IMG/VR virus record: IMGVR_UViG_3300022925_002539
Span: 1 to 64,000 of that record
Strand: one strand, 5' to 3'
DNA from: a virus
DNA: 64,000 bases
The notes under the pieces are model-generated. The model saw only the letters and a program-made list of their open reading frames with translations, did not search any database and was not told where the DNA came from. Positions 2,452-63,161 of the stretch are shown here, piece by piece. The translations under genes and the position numbers were made by a program. Position 1 is the first letter of the stretch. Each line of letters begins with the position of its first letter.

Positions 2452-2688
2452 ATGGTTGTACTTTTACCATATCCAAACGGAATGACGTATCCTGAAATGG
2501 GTGATGAACATAATATATTTCAGTATGCAAATGAAATACGTGATTATGTAAATAGAGTATGTAAAGGTCCTTGGACTAGCGGACATGAGGATGTATTACA
2601 AGCAGGTTTGAGAGTTAGACTAGGAAATGAAAAAGATTTATTCATGCTTAAAATGAAATATGGATTGGATATAGTACAAAATGTATGA
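2452..2688 (+). CDS. small protein, unknown
   Basis: 78 residues, starting at the base after the previous stop and overlapping the glyA start by 8 nt (ATGTATGA). The middle (FQYANEIRDYVNRVCKGPW) appears helical. No family recognised. Its tight position between the basic protein and glyA implies a single transcript. Confidence 0.6.
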   Translation: MVVLLPYPNGMTYPEMGDEHNIFQYANEIRDYVNRVCKGPWTSGHEDVLQAGLRVRLGNEKDLFMLKMKYGLDIVQNV

Positions 2689-3820
2689 AGACATAAAGTT
2701 AATACTAGACAAAGAACAACTAAGACAAGATACAACTATAGAATTAATTGCTAGTGAGAACTATGCAAGTCAAGCAGTAATGGACTTGTGTGGTAGTATT
2801 TTTACTAACAAGTATGCAGAAGGTTATCCACGTAAACGTTACTATAATGGTTGCGAGTATATGGATGAGGTTGAGCAACTTGCAATAGATTTAGTTTGCG
2901 AACTTTATGGTTGTGAGTATGCAAACGTGCAACCACATTCAGGTGTAAATGCAAACACTGCAGTTTATCAAGCATTTATGAAACCTGGTGATGTACTTAT
3001 GGGTATGGATCTAGCAAGTGGCGGACACTTATCACACGGTGCACCTCCTACTCTAAGTGGTAAGTTTTACAATGCAGTCACTTATGGTGTTGATGATAAT
3101 GGTTTACTTGACTACGATAAAATAGAAGGTATTGCAAAACTTAATATGCCTAAGTTAATTGTTGCAGGAGCAAGTGCATATCCAAGACAGATAGATTGGA
3201 GTGCATTTAGACAAATTGCTGACAGTGTAGGTGCAATATTATTAGTTGATATGGCACACTATAGTGGACTAGTCGCTGGTCAAGTATATGATAGTCCATT
3301 TGGTTATGCAGATGTAGTGACAAGCACTACACATAAAACACTTCGTGGACCTAGAGGTGGCATGATCTTATGGGATGATCCTAAATGGTGCAAACGTATT
3401 AATAGTGCAATATTTCCAGGCACACAAGGTGGACCACTTATGAACATAATTGCTGCAAAAGCACAATGTTACAGTGAAGCATTACTTCCTAGTTTTGAAC
3501 AGTATGCACACCAAGTGATCAAAAATGCAAAAGTAATGTGCGAGGTATTTGAAGCACGTGGTTTTCCTGTACAAACAGGTGGCACAGATAGTCATATTAT
3601 ATTAATGGATTTAAGCAAAAGTAAGCATAGTGGTAGACAAGCTGCAGACTTACTGGAAGAAAATGGTATTACTGTTAATAAAAATGGTGTACCAAATGAT
3701 CCACGTAGTTTTGTAGAAACAAGTGGTATAAGAATAGGCACTGCCGCTGAAACTACAAAAGGTCATAAAGAAGATTTCTTTATTAACTTAGCAGGAAAAA
3801 TTTGTACAATACTAGGATAA
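2681..3820 (+). CDS. glyA: serine hydroxymethyltransferase
   Basis: Interconverts serine and glycine with transfer of a one-carbon unit to tetrahydrofolate (PLP enzyme, cytosolic). Family signatures are all present: ELIASENYAS near the N-terminus, NKYAEGYPRKRYYNG, HSGVNAN, DMAHYSGLVAG, and the PLP-lysine motif STTHKTLRGPRGG with Lys219. At 379 residues it is about 40 shorter than usual bacterial enzymes (about 415-430), the loss being at the C-terminus. It is followed by a flavin amino-acid oxidase-like gene, suggesting a glycine/serine module. For a phage it would feed one-carbon units to nucleotide synthesis (inference). Confidence 0.95.
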   Translation: MYEDIKLILDKEQLRQDTTIELIASENYASQAVMDLCGSIFTNKYAEGYPRKRYYNGCEYMDEVEQLAIDLVCELYGCEYANVQPHSGVNANTAVYQAFMKPGDVLMGMDLASGGHLSHGAPPTLSGKFYNAVTYGVDDNGLLDYDKIEGIAKLNMPKLIVAGASAYPRQIDWSAFRQIADSVGAILLVDMAHYSGLVAGQVYDSPFGYADVVTSTTHKTLRGPRGGMILWDDPKWCKRINSAIFPGTQGGPLMNIIAAKAQCYSEALLPSFEQYAHQVIKNAKVMCEVFEARGFPVQTGGTDSHIILMDLSKSKHSGRQAADLLEENGITVNKNGVPNDPRSFVETSGIRIGTAAETTKGHKEDFFINLAGKICTILG

Positions 3821-20544: not shown

Positions 20545-20620
<76 letters not shown>

Positions 20621-22330: not shown

Positions 22331-22419
22331 GGACAGTTGGCTGAGTGGCTTAAAGCGGCGGATTACTAATCCGTTGTACCCAAAAGGTACCGTGGGTTCG
22401 AATCCTACACTGTCCGCCA
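22331..22419 (+). tRNA. tRNA-Ser with anticodon ACU
   Basis: Acceptor GGACAGT with ACTGTCC, D-arm GGCTGAGTGG, a long variable arm (GTACC with GGTAC), T-arm with GTTCGAATC, G73 and encoded CCA: a type II tRNA-Ser. The anticodon stem GCGGA with TCCGT encloses TTACTAA, giving anticodon ACU instead of the usual GCU. It would read AGU, the dominant Ser codon here. Confidence 0.9.
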
Positions 22420-22441: not shown

Positions 22442-22750
22442 ATGTTAAAACTTACAGAAAAAGCAACAGAATATTTAAAGTCAGTTACTCCTGATGGTGA
22501 CTATGTTACACTTGGTGTTAAAGGTGGAGGATGTTCAGGCTTTACATATGTTTGGGATCATAAATCAAAATGGCCAGATGTAAAGTGGAGCGAGCCTATC
22601 AACGACATATTGGTTGTTGATCCTATAGCAGAAATGTTTGTGCTAGGATGCACAGTTGATTGGGTCAACGAACTAGGAGGTAACTATCTAAAAGTTATCA
22701 ATCCAAATGCCGTTGCCAGTTGTGGTTGTGGAGAAAGCTTCGCAGTTTAA
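22442..22750 (+). CDS. A-type iron-sulfur carrier (IscA/ErpA-like)
   Basis: 102 residues. The three cysteines of the HesB/IscA family are present: Cys31 in GGGCSGFTY, and Cys94 and Cys96 in SCGCGESF. A fourth cysteine (LGCTVDW) is extra. The family carries or transfers Fe-S clusters to apoproteins. In a phage it may mature Fe-S enzymes during infection or be packaged. The length is normal. It lies directly after tRNA-Ser behind a late-type element and converges on a zinc-ribbon gene with a 4-nt overlap. Confidence 0.85.
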   Translation: MLKLTEKATEYLKSVTPDGDYVTLGVKGGGCSGFTYVWDHKSKWPDVKWSEPINDILVVDPIAEMFVLGCTVDWVNELGGNYLKVINPNAVASCGCGESFAV

Positions 22751-30842: not shown

Positions 30843-31250
30843 ATGAAACAAATCGATTTAAACAAATACAAAGAATTCGTACAAGCAGTTACAAGTGCTG
30901 AATCCAACAATGTGGGTGACATGAAAACTGCGGTAGACAATCTTGAAGACAGTGGTGTAAATGTAAGTTTACTACTGACTGGTGCAGTAGGTATCAGTGC
31001 AGAAGGTGGTGAGTTTATGGAAATTGTAAAGAAGTGTATATTTCAAGGCAAACCACTTAACGAAGAAACACAGTATCATGCTAAAAGAGAACTAGGTGAT
31101 ATTATGTGGTATTGGATAAATTCATGCCGTGCATTGAATCTTGATCCAAACGAAGTAATAGCAGAAAATGTTAAAAAGTTAGAAGCACGTTACCCAGGTG
31201 GTAGTTTTGATGCTTTCTATAGTGAGAATAGAAAAGACGGAGATTTATAA
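30843..31250 (+). CDS. mazG: MazG-like nucleotide pyrophosphohydrolase
   Basis: 135 residues. The four-helix MazG core shows GISAEGGEFMEIVKK followed by KRELGDIMWYW, giving the ExxE and ExxD metal-binding residues of the family. The C-terminal NLDPNEVIAENVKKLEARYP is also typical. Members hydrolyse (d)NTPs or alarmones; phage copies are thought to alter nucleotide pools or ppGpp. The gene is early by promoter and overlaps the membrane protein after it by 1 nt. Confidence 0.85.
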   Translation: MKQIDLNKYKEFVQAVTSAESNNVGDMKTAVDNLEDSGVNVSLLLTGAVGISAEGGEFMEIVKKCIFQGKPLNEETQYHAKRELGDIMWYWINSCRALNLDPNEVIAENVKKLEARYPGGSFDAFYSENRKDGDL

Positions 31251-31933
31251 TGAATAGATCAGCATATGCGACAACTAGTTATCAGTATGATGAAGGTTTA
31301 CGTAAATTTATGTTGAATATGTTTAACCACACTGCTATGGGATTAGCAGTAAGTGGTGTTGTTGCTTATTTTGTTTATGCAACAGGATTAGTATACTCAT
31401 TAATGAGTGGTCCACTAGCATGGGTAGTAATGTTAGCACCATTGGGTATGATTTTTTGGTATAGTTTTGCAGGACGTAATTGGGAACTATCTACTACAAA
31501 GAACTTTTACTATGCATTTACTGCCGTAATGGGTATAGGATTAAGTGCATTATTTGCAGTTTATACTGCCTATAGTTTAGTTCAAGTTTTCTTCATTACA
31601 AGTGCAACTTTTGCTGGTGCAAGTATATATGGATATAGTACTAAAAAAGATCTAACTTCAATGGGTAGTTTTTTAATAATAGGACTAATTGGAATAATAA
31701 TTGCTAGTATTGTAAATATCTTCTTAGCAAGCAGTGGATTACATTTTGCAATTAGTATTATTGGTGTACTTATATTTACAGGTTTGACTGCCTGGGACAC
31801 ACAAAGAGCTAAACAAATTTATAACGAATGTGGTGGCGATGAAAGATACGGAGTACAGTTTGCATTAAGTTTATATCTTAATTTTATCAACTTATTCCAA
31901 ATGTTATTAGCACTACTAGGAAATAGAGAATAG
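31250..31933 (+). CDS. Bax inhibitor-1 family membrane protein
   Basis: 227 residues with seven hydrophobic segments. The N-terminal LRKFMLNMFNHTAMGLAVSGVVAYF and the C-terminal TAWDTQRAKQIY are signatures of the BI-1/YbhL/YccA (TMBIM) family. Bacterial relatives interact with membrane proteases such as FtsH or conduct Ca2+/H+. A phage copy could modulate host membrane proteolysis or ion balance (inference). Early promoter, co-transcribed with mazG. Confidence 0.85.
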   Translation: MNRSAYATTSYQYDEGLRKFMLNMFNHTAMGLAVSGVVAYFVYATGLVYSLMSGPLAWVVMLAPLGMIFWYSFAGRNWELSTTKNFYYAFTAVMGIGLSALFAVYTAYSLVQVFFITSATFAGASIYGYSTKKDLTSMGSFLIIGLIGIIIASIVNIFLASSGLHFAISIIGVLIFTGLTAWDTQRAKQIYNECGGDERYGVQFALSLYLNFINLFQMLLALLGNRE

Positions 31934-39008: not shown

Positions 39009-39085
39009 GCACCAGTAGCTCAGCTGGATAGAGCATCGGTCTACGAAACCGAGGGTCGGAGGTTCGAATCCTTCCTGGTGCACCA
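39009..39085 (+). tRNA. tRNA-Arg(ACG)
   Basis: Acceptor GCACCAG with CTGGTGC, D-arm AGCTCAGCTGGATAGAGC, anticodon loop CTACGAA giving ACG (A34 normally deaminated to inosine by host TadA), T-arm GTTCGAATC, A73, encoded CCA. Reads CGT, frequent in these genes. Confidence 0.95.
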
Positions 39086-42222: not shown

Positions 42223-43653
42223 ATGATTGAAATGATTACAGCTTTAATGGCTGGCGTACTATATGGATTACTAATAGGCATAATACCTAGTGCAGGTGCT
42301 ACTACAGGTTTGGTTGCACTGTTTGGTTTTATCAGTTACTTTGTTCATGAACCATATTTAGGTGTAGTATTCTTAATGGCAGTGGTTGCTGCTAGTACCA
42401 CAGGCGATAGTTTTACTTCAATATTGTTAGGAATACCAGGAGCAAACAGTGCCGCTGCTACTATGGTAGATGGCTTTCCACTTGCACAACAAGGCAGAGC
42501 AAGTTATGCAATCAGTGCCGCCGTTACCACTTCAACAGTAAATGGTTTAATTTGGGGTTGTTTAGTGTTCTTATTATTACCTTGGTATACAAACTTATTG
42601 ATGATTATTGGTGTACCTGAACTTTGGGCATTTACTGTACTTGCACTAGCAACAGTTGGATTTATAAGTACAAAATTTTGGTTCCGTAGTTTGTGTGCAA
42701 TTTGTATTGGTATATTTTTAGGCATGGTAGGAGTTAACCCAGAAACAAATGAGCCACGTTTTACTGGTAGTTGGTTTTATTTAGAAGATGGTATACAACT
42801 TATGCCAGTAGTTGCAGGACTATTTGCTATTCCAGAATTAATTAAAGGACTGTTCAATAGAACTAAGACTGCCACTATTGTAAAAAGCGAATTAACAGAA
42901 GGTGTCAAAGAATTTTGGCGTAATCGTTGGTTAGGACTACGAGGCGGTTTTATTGGTGCTTTTATAGGTTTACTGCCTGGACTAGGAGGTGCTATGGCAG
43001 ATTGGATGGCATACGGAAGTGCAGTCGCTAGTAATCCAAATGAACGTTTTGGTAACGGCAATATTAAAGGTGTTATAGGACCAGAAGGTGCTAATAATGC
43101 ACAGAAAGCAACAAGTATGATTCCAACAGTTTTATTTGGTATACCAGGTGCACCGTTTGCGGCAGTTTTAATGAGTTTGTTTATGTATCTAAATTTTGAA
43201 TTAGGCACACCAGATTTAGCCTACGACACAGAATTTTTTACAAGTATGACATTTGGCTTTTTAAGTGCAACAGTTATAGTTGCAATATTGTGTATATTTT
43301 TAATAAAGCCAATTAGTTATATTACCAGTGTCCCTTACAAATATTATTTTCCTATTTTACTAGCAGTAATTGTATGGAGTAGTATGCAGTATACAGGAGG
43401 CTGGGAAGATTTTGTAATGTTAGCTGTATTTTCCTGCATAGGATTTGTTTGCAGACATTACAAATTTAGTAGACCTGCTCTACTAATAGGATTTATATTA
43501 TCCGAAAAAATAGAAAAACTTTCCATACAGATGTTTGCTTTGTATGACATTGAAAGTTTAATTACAAGACCGATATTTATGGTATTAGTTATTTTTATTA
43601 TAGGTATCTTTGCATATAGTTTTATAAAGAAAGGAAAAATCGATTATGCGTAA
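42223..43653 (+). CDS. tctA: tripartite tricarboxylate transporter TctA subunit
   Basis: 476 residues, about twelve hydrophobic segments. The two inverted-repeat signatures of TctA are readable: IPSAGATTGLVALFGF with GDSFTSILLGIPGANSAAATMVDGFPLA, and LLPGLGGAMADWMAYG with MIPTVLFGIPGAPFAAVL. The length is only slightly short of cellular TctA (about 500). It forms the membrane channel for carboxylates delivered by TctC. The overlap with tctC (8 nt) and the shared leader make it an operon. An auxiliary uptake system in a phage is uncommon. Confidence 0.92.
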   Translation: MIEMITALMAGVLYGLLIGIIPSAGATTGLVALFGFISYFVHEPYLGVVFLMAVVAASTTGDSFTSILLGIPGANSAAATMVDGFPLAQQGRASYAISAAVTTSTVNGLIWGCLVFLLLPWYTNLLMIIGVPELWAFTVLALATVGFISTKFWFRSLCAICIGIFLGMVGVNPETNEPRFTGSWFYLEDGIQLMPVVAGLFAIPELIKGLFNRTKTATIVKSELTEGVKEFWRNRWLGLRGGFIGAFIGLLPGLGGAMADWMAYGSAVASNPNERFGNGNIKGVIGPEGANNAQKATSMIPTVLFGIPGAPFAAVLMSLFMYLNFELGTPDLAYDTEFFTSMTFGFLSATVIVAILCIFLIKPISYITSVPYKYYFPILLAVIVWSSMQYTGGWEDFVMLAVFSCIGFVCRHYKFSRPALLIGFILSEKIEKLSIQMFALYDIESLITRPIFMVLVIFIIGIFAYSFIKKGKIDYA

Positions 43654-44707
43654 ATTTTTAATTGCATTATTTTTAATGCTTAGTACACCAGCACTTGCTG
43701 ATTATACAATGATAGTACCACAAAAGCCAGGAGGAGGTACAAGTGTGTGGGCACAGATCGTGGCTACAGAAATGGAAAAATATTTAGATGAAAAGATTGT
43801 TATCAAACACATTAGAGGTGCTAGAGACATTCCTGGATTCAACAAGTTTCACAATGAACTCCAAAATGATCCAAAAACAATAATGGTATCTCATGGTGGT
43901 AATGGTGTAAGTTTCTTAAACGAAAAGGTAGATTACAACTATGCCGACTATGAAAGTGTAGGATTAATGAATCTAAATATTATTGTTGCATCACGTAAGG
44001 ATCATAATCCATACGGTGGAAAGAAAACTGCTTTTGCTGCTGGTAGTGGAATGATTCCAGAAGGCATTGCAATGACATTACTAAAGTGTGGAGCAGGACT
44101 TACTACAGAACAATACATTGACTGTTTCAAACGTAAAGTAAACTGGGTAAAAGGTATGTCAGGTGGCGAAAGACGTTTAGCATTTAAACGTGGCGAACTA
44201 GACGGTACTAGAGAAAATCCAGCTGCTTTTAAAAAACATGTTCAACCTACTATTGAACAAGGCGTTGCAGGATTATGGTTTCACCATGGGATACTACAAG
44301 CAGATGGTTCACATGCTGATGATCCAAATTATCCAGGATATCAAATGGAGCAATTATTCTATGCAGCAAATAGAACAAAACCAGAAGGTGATTTATATGC
44401 CGCCTATAAACTTGTAAAAAGTTTCCGTGATGGTATGCAAAAAGCACTATGGGTTGGAAAAGGAAATCCAAATAAAGCGAAACTAATCGCAGCATTAAAA
44501 CAAGTTGCTACAAATCCTGAAAGTGTCAGTGCAGTAGAAAAGAAAGTTGGCAAGTATCAATGGCTAATTGGCAATGCCGGTGATGCTCATAGAGATACAC
44601 TGATGAAACTTATTACACCTGAAGCATTAAGTACACTTGTGAAGTTTAATAACGAAGCATTTGGAATTAAAGCTGTGTATAAGGATACATTACTTGCCCA
44701 AAAATAA
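43646..44707 (+). CDS. tctC: TctC-like periplasmic binding protein
   Basis: 353 residues with a signal peptide (MRKFLIALFLMLSTPALA). IVPQKPGGGTSVWAQIVATEMEKY is the TctC/Bug-family entry motif (the P-x-x-GGG-x-D/T loop). YADYESVGLM follows as the usual second domain crossing. The family binds tricarboxylates, dicarboxylates or other acids for TctAB. It sits immediately after tctA. Ligand not readable. Confidence 0.85.
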   Translation: MRKFLIALFLMLSTPALADYTMIVPQKPGGGTSVWAQIVATEMEKYLDEKIVIKHIRGARDIPGFNKFHNELQNDPKTIMVSHGGNGVSFLNEKVDYNYADYESVGLMNLNIIVASRKDHNPYGGKKTAFAAGSGMIPEGIAMTLLKCGAGLTTEQYIDCFKRKVNWVKGMSGGERRLAFKRGELDGTRENPAAFKKHVQPTIEQGVAGLWFHHGILQADGSHADDPNYPGYQMEQLFYAANRTKPEGDLYAAYKLVKSFRDGMQKALWVGKGNPNKAKLIAALKQVATNPESVSAVEKKVGKYQWLIGNAGDAHRDTLMKLITPEALSTLVKFNNEAFGIKAVYKDTLLAQK

Positions 44708-59425: not shown

Positions 59426-61767
59426 AATTAGATGAATTTGGTGTAGGAAAAATTACTGCACAAAATACAACTAAAGATGTTAAACCAGGCGAAACAGAAC
59501 GTCAGGCAAAAAAACTTGGCTTAATGAATGGCAAAGCAAAGTTACTACATAAAACTGCTGCAAAGAATAGTGATCCAAACACACTTTTTAATTTAGGAAT
59601 TGCAGAAGATTATTCAAAAGATATGGATGAGAAATGGTTTAAAAATAATATTTCAAAAATTGCAAAAAAGTATAACATAGACCCAGACGTAGCACTTAAA
59701 GTATGGCGTAGTGAAGGCGGTATGAAATGGCAGAGCCAATTGAAACCTAAGACAACAAAAGTCAAAACTGCAGGTGGCAAAGAAGCAAGTTATGGTCCAT
59801 TCCAATTGTATACAGGTAAAGGTGGACTTGGTAATGCTTGGGAAGAAAAATATGGCAAAAAACTTTCTACTGCAAATAGTCCGGAAGATGTATTAAGTCA
59901 AATAGATTTTGCATTGAGTACAGTTCCAAAACGTGGTTGGCAAGATTTTAAAGGTGCTGAAAGAGTAGGTATCAAACAGAATCAAGGCGTAAACATGTAC
60001 AAAGATTTACCTAAACCTAAACCTACAGATTTAAAAAACAAAAGTATGTATAAAAAATTGGATAAGGTACAAACACAACCTAGTGTTTTAGATCCTCGTC
60101 CACTAATAAAGAAAATACCAGATTTAGTTAATCCACTACCACTTGCTAGAACACTTAAAAAGCAAGGTCAAGACTTTTACAAACAAAGTAAAAAAGAGTT
60201 AGACAACATTAGTGTAGACAAAGATAGTTTTACATACAAAAATATTGTTAAACCAGCTGGTAAAGCATATGATTACATAAGTAAAGGCTTTACAGGTTTT
60301 ATGAAAGATTTAAAGAATAGTCCTGAGTATAAAGCTGCAGGTGAAAAAAATAAAAAACTATATGGACCTAAAAAAGAAAACACAGTAAAAGAACTAAAAA
60401 TACAAAAGCCAGATCCTAAAACTACACTAGGTATAAAACGTAAAGATATGCCACAGATTAAGAAAAAGGATTATGAAGAGTTTATAGAATACTTACAGAA
60501 TAACGGTGCAAAGTTCCGTAAAGAAACAGTTCCTGCTAGTGAACTAAAAGCAATGCAAAGTGAATTTAGCGACAAAGGTATTATTAAACAAATTGAAAAA
60601 AATTTAGATCAGGGTATTAATACAAAAGCAATTATTGTAAGTGAAGATGATTATGTTCTAGATGGACACCATAGATGGCTTGTTGCAAGTAATACAGGCA
60701 ATGACTTAGACATTTACCGTATCAATATGCCTGCATATGAATTATATGATCTAGTAAAAGGTTTTGAAAAGACATATTACAAAGATATGTATGACGAAAC
60801 ACGTGGCAGTATTGGCGTACCATTGTCCAGTGGATTAGTTGTAAGTATATTTCCACATCGTCCATTAAAAATAAAAAAACCTACTAAAGGCAAATTGAAT
60901 TACAATGAAGATTTAAACACACAACGTGGTAGACTAGAATACTTTTTAAAGCAACCTAGTATAAGTCAAGGTAGAGCAATACATTTAGGCAAGTTACCAA
61001 AATACCACGATGGTGATGATGAACTTGCAAAATTAGTTCCAGAACGCAATGGTGTGTACGCATTGCATCCTGATGCGTGGGAAAGTACATTTTATAGTTT
61101 AACAAATAAAGACCTTAAAAAGATTACTCGTTACCAACCAGCAATTGTAAAAATACCTGAAGGTAGTATTGTTGCTGATATGGCAATTGCTAATCAGTTT
61201 TATAGAACAAACGATCCAGAAGAAAAAGAAAAGTTTGCAAAAGCATACAAAGACAGTATAGTGCCTTATGGTAGTGATACTAGTCATATAAAGATGCCTG
61301 AAATTATTATGCCACGGCTAATAGAAAGCAAAATGAAAGGTGGTTCAGATTTTTATAAATTTATGGGATATAAACTTAAAGATTTAGATCCTGATAACAT
61401 TAGACAACTTCCTAAAGTATTAAAAATAGATCCAGCCGTAGCAAAACCTAAACTTAAACCAAAAGTTGACCCTGAGGATTTTGAAGAACAAATAGATGAA
61501 GATTTAAGAGATTGGTTCAAACAAAAATGGGTAAACATTGGTAAGAAGAAAAAAGGCGGTGGACATCCTGAGTGTGGCACTAGTGGCGATAAACGTGGAT
61601 ATGCAAAATGCGTACCTGCTGCAAAAGCCGCCAAGATGACTAAGAAAGAAAAAGAAAGTGCAGTAAGACGTAAGCGAGCTGCACAGAATAAAAAAGGCAG
61701 AGGCGGTAAAAAGAAATCAGGTTCAGGTAAAAAGCCAATTCGTGTAAGTACAAAGGCTAAAAAATGA
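59422..61767 (+). CDS. multidomain late protein (transglycosylase-, ParB-like, DUF5872-like)
   Basis: 781 residues. About 75-190: a lysozyme/transglycosylase-like segment (VWRSEGGMKW, SYGPFQLYTGKGGLGN, GWQDFKGAE). About 360-435: ParB/sulfiredoxin-like VLDGHHRWLVAS at 412. About 450-690: an unassigned alpha-beta part. The last 80 residues (LRDWFKQKWVNIG, then GGHPECGTSGDKRGYAKCVP and a Lys/Ala-rich tail) match the DUF5872-type Cys/basic module of marine phages. Such a chain suggests an internal virion protein delivered with DNA, but this is inference. Confidence 0.65.
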   Translation: MKLDEFGVGKITAQNTTKDVKPGETERQAKKLGLMNGKAKLLHKTAAKNSDPNTLFNLGIAEDYSKDMDEKWFKNNISKIAKKYNIDPDVALKVWRSEGGMKWQSQLKPKTTKVKTAGGKEASYGPFQLYTGKGGLGNAWEEKYGKKLSTANSPEDVLSQIDFALSTVPKRGWQDFKGAERVGIKQNQGVNMYKDLPKPKPTDLKNKSMYKKLDKVQTQPSVLDPRPLIKKIPDLVNPLPLARTLKKQGQDFYKQSKKELDNISVDKDSFTYKNIVKPAGKAYDYISKGFTGFMKDLKNSPEYKAAGEKNKKLYGPKKENTVKELKIQKPDPKTTLGIKRKDMPQIKKKDYEEFIEYLQNNGAKFRKETVPASELKAMQSEFSDKGIIKQIEKNLDQGINTKAIIVSEDDYVLDGHHRWLVASNTGNDLDIYRINMPAYELYDLVKGFEKTYYKDMYDETRGSIGVPLSSGLVVSIFPHRPLKIKKPTKGKLNYNEDLNTQRGRLEYFLKQPSISQGRAIHLGKLPKYHDGDDELAKLVPERNGVYALHPDAWESTFYSLTNKDLKKITRYQPAIVKIPEGSIVADMAIANQFYRTNDPEEKEKFAKAYKDSIVPYGSDTSHIKMPEIIMPRLIESKMKGGSDFYKFMGYKLKDLDPDNIRQLPKVLKIDPAVAKPKLKPKVDPEDFEEQIDEDLRDWFKQKWVNIGKKKKGGGHPECGTSGDKRGYAKCVPAAKAAKMTKKEKESAVRRKRAAQNKKGRGGKKKSGSGKKPIRVSTKAKK

Positions 61768-63161
61768 GAATAGACCAGATCACTGAAAAGTGGAGCCAAA
61801 AATATAAGCGAAGTATAGACTGTAGTAACCCAAAAGGTTTCTCACAGAAAGCTCACTGTGCTGGTCGTAAAAAGAAAAAGAATGAAAGTATCCGCGAATC
61901 ATATGAAATAGAGTTTGTTTGTGTAAACCCTAAGTTCTGTGATGCCACTGAGCAAAAGAATCAAGATAGACTATTCCAAGCACTAAGAGCAGTACCAGGT
62001 ATTATTGTATACAAGCAAGACTTTGATGAGCATAACAGTATGGCTGCTATTATTAAAGATGAAGCAGACACAGACGCACCTAAACTAATACAAAAAATAG
62101 CACAACAACACAAAGTTGCTATTGATTTAGAAAATGATGTTAGCCAAAGTATGATGGATGATATTATCACTGGCAGACTTGAAGGACTCACAGACTATTA
62201 TGATACAGATAGTTTGTCAGAAGCAAAAGCAAACGAATCTATACCAAGTCCCGATAAAATGGGTAAACCTACTTTACCAAGTTTACAAAATACAATTCAA
62301 GATCTAAACGACTTAATAAAAGACTTAGACAAAGGTAAACCACAACCTAAAGAAATAATACTTGATCCTGAAGATTACAGAGAGAAACGTAAGAAGTTTA
62401 AACAACAAGGTAAGCCTTATATGATTACTAAGGTTCAGGAAGTACAGGTTGACGAAGGTGTAAATGATCCGCACATTTTTAAAGCAGTGTTTATGGCAGG
62501 TGGTCCAGGCAGTGGCAAAAGTTTTGTAGCACAAAACATATTAGGTGGCACAGGATTACGTGCAGTAAACAGTGATGAAGTATATGAATTTTTATTGAAG
62601 CGTCAAGGTCTTTCTCTGGATCCAGACACAATTGCTTCTACCCAGGGCCAAGAAATCAGAGGTACTGCAAAAGACTTAACTGCTAAAAGACAACAAAATT
62701 ATATCGATGGCAGAATAGGATTGTTAATTGATGGTACCGGTAAAAATGTTAGTGTAATACAAGACCTAGCACAAAAATTAAAGAGCATAGGTTACAGTGT
62801 TAGCATGATATTTGTTAATACTAGTTTAGAAGTTGCACAACAAAGAAACAGACAAAGAGACAGAGTTTTGCCTGCTAATTTAGTAGCAGACTCTTGGAAT
62901 GAAGTTCAACAAAACCTTATGAAATATCAGCAAATCTTTGGTGCTGATAGATTTCATATCGTTGATAACAGTGGAGGATTAGAAGATCTTGATAGACAAA
63001 AAAACTTTGATAAAGTATACAATGAAGTACAACGTTTTTTAAACACTCCACCTAAACATAAAAAAGCATTAGAGTGGATTAAAAATCAAAAGGCACAGAA
63101 CAATGCAAAACCAACAACCAACAGTGGAAAGTCTGATGGAGGAGTTACAAGCACTAACTGA
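61764..63161 (+). CDS. zeta-toxin-like P-loop kinase with targeting-like N-terminus
   Basis: 465 residues. N-terminus MRIDQITEKW, then CSNPKGFSQKAHCAGRKKKK (Cys/basic module, residues 20-40). Residues 45-150 are a separate alpha-beta part. From 240 a P-loop kinase, GGPGSGKS (246-253), with DGTGKN and RQRDR as later motifs, resembling zeta toxin or polynucleotide kinase. MRIxxITE fits a T4 capsid-targeting peptide with an I-x-E prohead-protease site. Packaging is inference. Confidence 0.65.
   Translation: MRIDQITEKWSQKYKRSIDCSNPKGFSQKAHCAGRKKKKNESIRESYEIEFVCVNPKFCDATEQKNQDRLFQALRAVPGIIVYKQDFDEHNSMAAIIKDEADTDAPKLIQKIAQQHKVAIDLENDVSQSMMDDIITGRLEGLTDYYDTDSLSEAKANESIPSPDKMGKPTLPSLQNTIQDLNDLIKDLDKGKPQPKEIILDPEDYREKRKKFKQQGKPYMITKVQEVQVDEGVNDPHIFKAVFMAGGPGSGKSFVAQNILGGTGLRAVNSDEVYEFLLKRQGLSLDPDTIASTQGQEIRGTAKDLTAKRQQNYIDGRIGLLIDGTGKNVSVIQDLAQKLKSIGYSVSMIFVNTSLEVAQQRNRQRDRVLPANLVADSWNEVQQNLMKYQQIFGADRFHIVDNSGGLEDLDRQKNFDKVYNEVQRFLNTPPKHKKALEWIKNQKAQNNAKPTTNSGKSDGGVTSTN

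Follow-up and report, generated by a model that had tools for sequence, protein, structure and literature searches.

The serine tRNA with anticodon ACU encoded by a marine phage is a real and recurrent tRNA variant, in which A takes the place of the G found at position 34 in the bacterial isoacceptor for AGY codons (anticodon GCU). Its gene lies in the stretch of 64,000 nucleotides analysed here (the window), which forms part of a virus record in IMG/VR, 101,579 bases long, that contains T4-like clamp-loader and baseplate genes. ARAGORN calls a complete tRNA-Ser(act) spanning exactly positions 22331-22419 on the plus strand, and the same segment scores 56.7 bits with the Rfam model RF00005 (gathering score 29). 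The discriminator G73 and an encoded CCA come after the acceptor stem (GGACAGT/ACTGTCC), and the anticodon stem (GCGGA/TCCGT) closes the loop TTACTAA, with the anticodon ACT (A34, C35, U36) at 22365-22367 on the plus strand and A34 itself at position 22365. The molecule folds as a class II cloverleaf with a long variable arm, as indicated by ARAGORN, Rfam and the preservation of all 25 stem pairs in five distinct sequences (see below). The class II body, G73 and a loop of the form TTxCTAA are common to this tRNA and to the tRNA-Ser(GCU) of bacteria and phages, which differ from it in having G at position 34. The preliminary description had read the loop as TTACTAA with A at position 34, and the anticodon as ACU in place of GCU, and on both points it agrees with the sequence and with the ARAGORN and Rfam results. 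A gene for an IscA/HesB-like Fe-S protein adjoins the tRNA gene (22442-22750, plus strand; Pfam Fe-S_biosyn, 33.2 bits), and a tRNA-Thr(UGU) gene is located upstream (20545-20620, plus strand; ARAGORN, and 71 bits with Rfam).

The neighbouring IscA-like protein was used to locate relatives of this region, and 573 related stretches were retrieved. All seven tRNA-Ser(AGY) genes present in these loci have the anticodon ACU. When they are aligned with the tRNA of the window (eight sequences, five of them distinct), the 25 stem pairs are all kept; in eight of them, two of which belong to the anticodon stem, both sides have changed. The loop does not vary among these sequences. A sequencing or assembly error at the anticodon, which had been named as a possible objection, is ruled out because ACU appears in seven of seven relatives while the surrounding stems change in a compensatory manner; the same A34 also recurs in scores of diverse and unrelated phage sequences.

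A search with the loop TTACTAA plus a T-arm pattern gave at least 120 viral loci and, among the matches listed, 107 of 120 were confirmed as tRNA-Ser(ACU), all of them further phage loci with the window's own copy left out. The frequency of the variant was estimated by two scans, each with one fixed anticodon stem and either purine allowed at position 34. The A to G ratios among phage tRNA-Ser(AGY) genes were 25:95 and 17:103, i.e., an A34 share of 14-21% in these two stem-defined samples, figures that are estimates since the loci are non-independent and some pattern matches have no ARAGORN call. In the newly fetched loci of both scans, the other tRNAs for NNY codons (Asn, Asp, His, Tyr, Cys, Phe and Ile) amounted to 570 with G34 versus 3 with A34 (Fisher p about 2e-20 for serine versus the others, calculated on non-independent loci); the G34 to A34 counts were 89:0 for tRNA-Cys and 63:1 for tRNA-Phe. 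Among the NNY tRNAs of the sampled phage loci, A34 is confined to serine. In a tree built from 241 distinct phage tRNA-Ser sequences after masking position 34, we counted 11 changes of the A/G label; shuffling the labels gives 49.6. A34 is a stable trait of several phage tRNA lineages and not a scattered mutation. No ACU anticodon was detected in cultured phages, where the ten records around similar tRNA-Ser matches (a small sample) all had GCU or UGA. We found no published work on phage tRNA-Ser(ACU) in the part of the literature covered, in which bracketed forms such as Ser(ACT) are unsearchable.

A host tRNA-Ser(ACU) of the same sequence had been named as the other possible objection. None was found in 142 alphaproteobacterial genomes, where the ACU pattern gave two matches with an unpaired stem, which we read as chance; the actual host of the phage may lie elsewhere. 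In the alphaproteobacterial comparison the GCU pattern matched 29 of 58, and the tRNA of the window has at most 79% identity to alphaproteobacterial tRNAs, 11 of the best 12 matches being GCU. Real tRNA-Ser(ACU) genes are present in the Patescibacteria, in about 5 of the 145 sampled genomes of the phylum. These natural bacterial genes have the same anticodon and loop as the window tRNA, but they are chromosomal, often located near a tRNA-Ser(GCU) gene, and have a distinct tRNA body. Many patescibacterial contigs (L129, L133, L138, L139, L146 and others) have tRNA-Ser(ACU) and tRNA-Ser(GCU) within the same 8 kb. The few further bacterial matches to ACU look like phage sequence in metagenome-assembled genomes. 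In a Nitrosopumilus MAG contig (L175) the tRNA-Ser(ACU) differs at two positions from the tRNA-Ser(GCU) of the same locus, the only pair this close that we observed, possibly a recent duplicate or an assembly effect.

Other components of the virus record deserve mention. Beyond the window, at 67110-67207 of the record (locus L701, 1501-1601), there is a class II tRNA-like gene with the loop CCGTTTA that ends in G73, and similar genes with the loop TTGTTTC appear in other loci (L404, 124-208; L416, 971-1056; and L109). These class II tRNA-like genes combine a GUU anticodon and a pyrimidine at position 37 with a long-variable-arm body and a G73 end. Within the window, a gene for a TctA-family transporter stands before another gene whose product begins like a signal peptide and has no Pfam match (42223-44707), a pair that, judging from the sequence, may represent nutrient uptake genes in a phage. 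A Bax1-I family membrane protein (31250-31933; PF01027, 186 bits) and a protein with a Zeta-toxin/AAA_33-like kinase domain at residues 240-409 (61764-63161) were also identified.

AGU is the dominant serine codon of the phage, as the preliminary description had maintained. Over the 77 predicted ORFs of the window, AGT makes up 692 of 1149 serine codons (60%), followed by TCA (188), TCT (120), AGC (111), TCC (22) and TCG (16), and our recount of the glyA/SHMT ORF (2681-3820; Pfam SHMT) gave exactly the 18 AGT in 22 serine codons first counted by hand. The further claim, that the tRNA has been re-tuned to phage codon usage, stands only in part. Compared with GC-matched tRNA-Ser(GCU) loci, the ACU loci have a higher AGT share of serine codons (+0.060 +- 0.014), and at equal GC the share of AGY is also higher in A34 loci (+0.102 +- 0.017), both values being uncorrected for shared ancestry. 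However, AGT/(AGT+AGC) is slightly lower in A34 loci after GC adjustment (-0.038 +- 0.014). In the clade of the window, AGT/Ser is 0.49 in loci with the ACU tRNA versus 0.24 in those without it (again uncorrected for shared ancestry, and short loci may lack a tRNA encoded elsewhere in the same genome), but AGC use also doubles and AGT/(AGT+AGC) is about equal (0.78 versus 0.76). Testing by pairs across the tRNA tree goes in the same direction, with higher AGU use in the presence of A34, although with five supported pairs the test is underpowered. The simple tuning reading is weakened because heavy use of AGY accompanies the tRNA without a turn from AGC to AGU beyond that expected from GC. The codon usage of A34 phages does not single out AGU.

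The reading that we favor, and consider fairly probable, is that an unedited A34 serine tRNA adds decoding of AGU while AGC is left to the tRNA-Ser(GCU) of the host, a supplementary role restricted to a single codon. The product of the gene would be a serine tRNA, charged by SerRS through its class II body (long variable arm and G73), whose wobble A, left unedited, would form a Watson-Crick pair with the most used serine codon of the phage. Expression, charging, the lack of inosine and AGU-only decoding are what we infer for this tRNA. Decoding of AGU by an ACU anticodon is well supported by analogy with published work in E. coli, where an orthogonal tRNA bearing ACU read AGU at 9.4% and AGC below detection, and its cDNA had no inosine at A34 (PMC11066159). 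This tRNA has the same anticodon, unedited, although it is an engineered molecule with a Methanocaldococcus jannaschii body and not a serine tRNA, unlike the natural one of the window.

If TadA of the host edited A34 to inosine, the tRNA would read AGU, AGC and possibly the arginine codon AGA. The rise of AGC use alongside AGU would fit with this, as would the presence in many A34 tRNAs of C32, the base found in the TadA substrate loop. The unedited ACU tRNA of E. coli and the requirement of TadA for the arginine anticodon loop, with its high specificity for the anticodon and loop of tRNA-Arg2 (PMC11066159), point the other way. The window itself provides an internal contrast, a tRNA-Arg(ACG) gene (39009-39085, plus strand; ARAGORN and sequence) with the usual anticodon and loop of a TadA substrate (CTACGAA). 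Both phage tRNAs have A34, but the loop UUACUAA of tRNA-Ser(ACU) departs from CUACGAA at U32 and U36. Inosine at position 34 could also lead to misreading of arginine codons as serine, AGA being the main arginine codon of the phage (370 of 729 in the 77 predicted ORFs). No deaminase-family protein (PF00383) was found in the phage record, which may be a fragment. Editing of A34 to inosine thus appears unlikely from these comparisons, and we regard decoding through inosine as very improbable. A coupling of U32 with A34 as a way of avoiding TadA was ruled out, C32 being common among A34 tRNAs.

Since G34 also reads AGU by wobble, decoding rules by themselves do not account for any advantage of A34. 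These rules also fail to explain the restriction of A34 to serine, as tRNA-Cys and tRNA-Phe keep G34. Tolerated drift, in which a G34 to A change persists in AT-rich phages because the tRNA-Ser(GCU) of the host covers both codons, would need a single transition, and the A34 loci are indeed more AT-rich on average (GC 0.372 versus 0.415). We nevertheless consider drift unlikely: tRNA-Cys and tRNA-Phe, which are not known to carry queuosine, stay G34 under the same decoding rule (see the counts above), label changes on the tree are far fewer than with shuffled labels, and the stems and loop are maintained through compensatory change. The restriction to one tRNA identity is what would be predicted from a specific enemy, such as an anticodon nuclease or tRNA-targeting toxin of the host or of a rival that recognizes tRNA-Ser(GCU) through G34, the effect on codons being a by-product of the escape. 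Changes in the anticodon loop of phage tRNAs have been proposed to evade host nucleases, but the same work names tRNA-Ser(gct) as a tRNA that nucleases do not target (PMC10264068). The remainder of the anticodon loop is constant, and our analysis brought to light no nuclease that specifically targets tRNA-Ser(GCU), so we give little credit to this explanation as well.

A 2024 study (PMC11066159) took up the question of why living organisms have essentially no unmodified A34 tRNAs and how such tRNAs work. We see about an even chance that, in phages and in some Patescibacteria, a natural A34 tRNA that stays unedited has become fixed repeatedly within a split codon box, as a one-codon class avoided by cellular genomes and kept for a reason specific to serine. 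If the unedited, single-codon reading is true, phages would be a source of many natural A34 tRNAs in a split codon box, where inosine editing would be harmful, and the question of A34 function would become testable with natural tRNAs. The A34/G34 case, a difference of a single base, would provide a sharp means to tell apart two reasons for phages to carry tRNAs, codon tuning and the evasion of nucleases.
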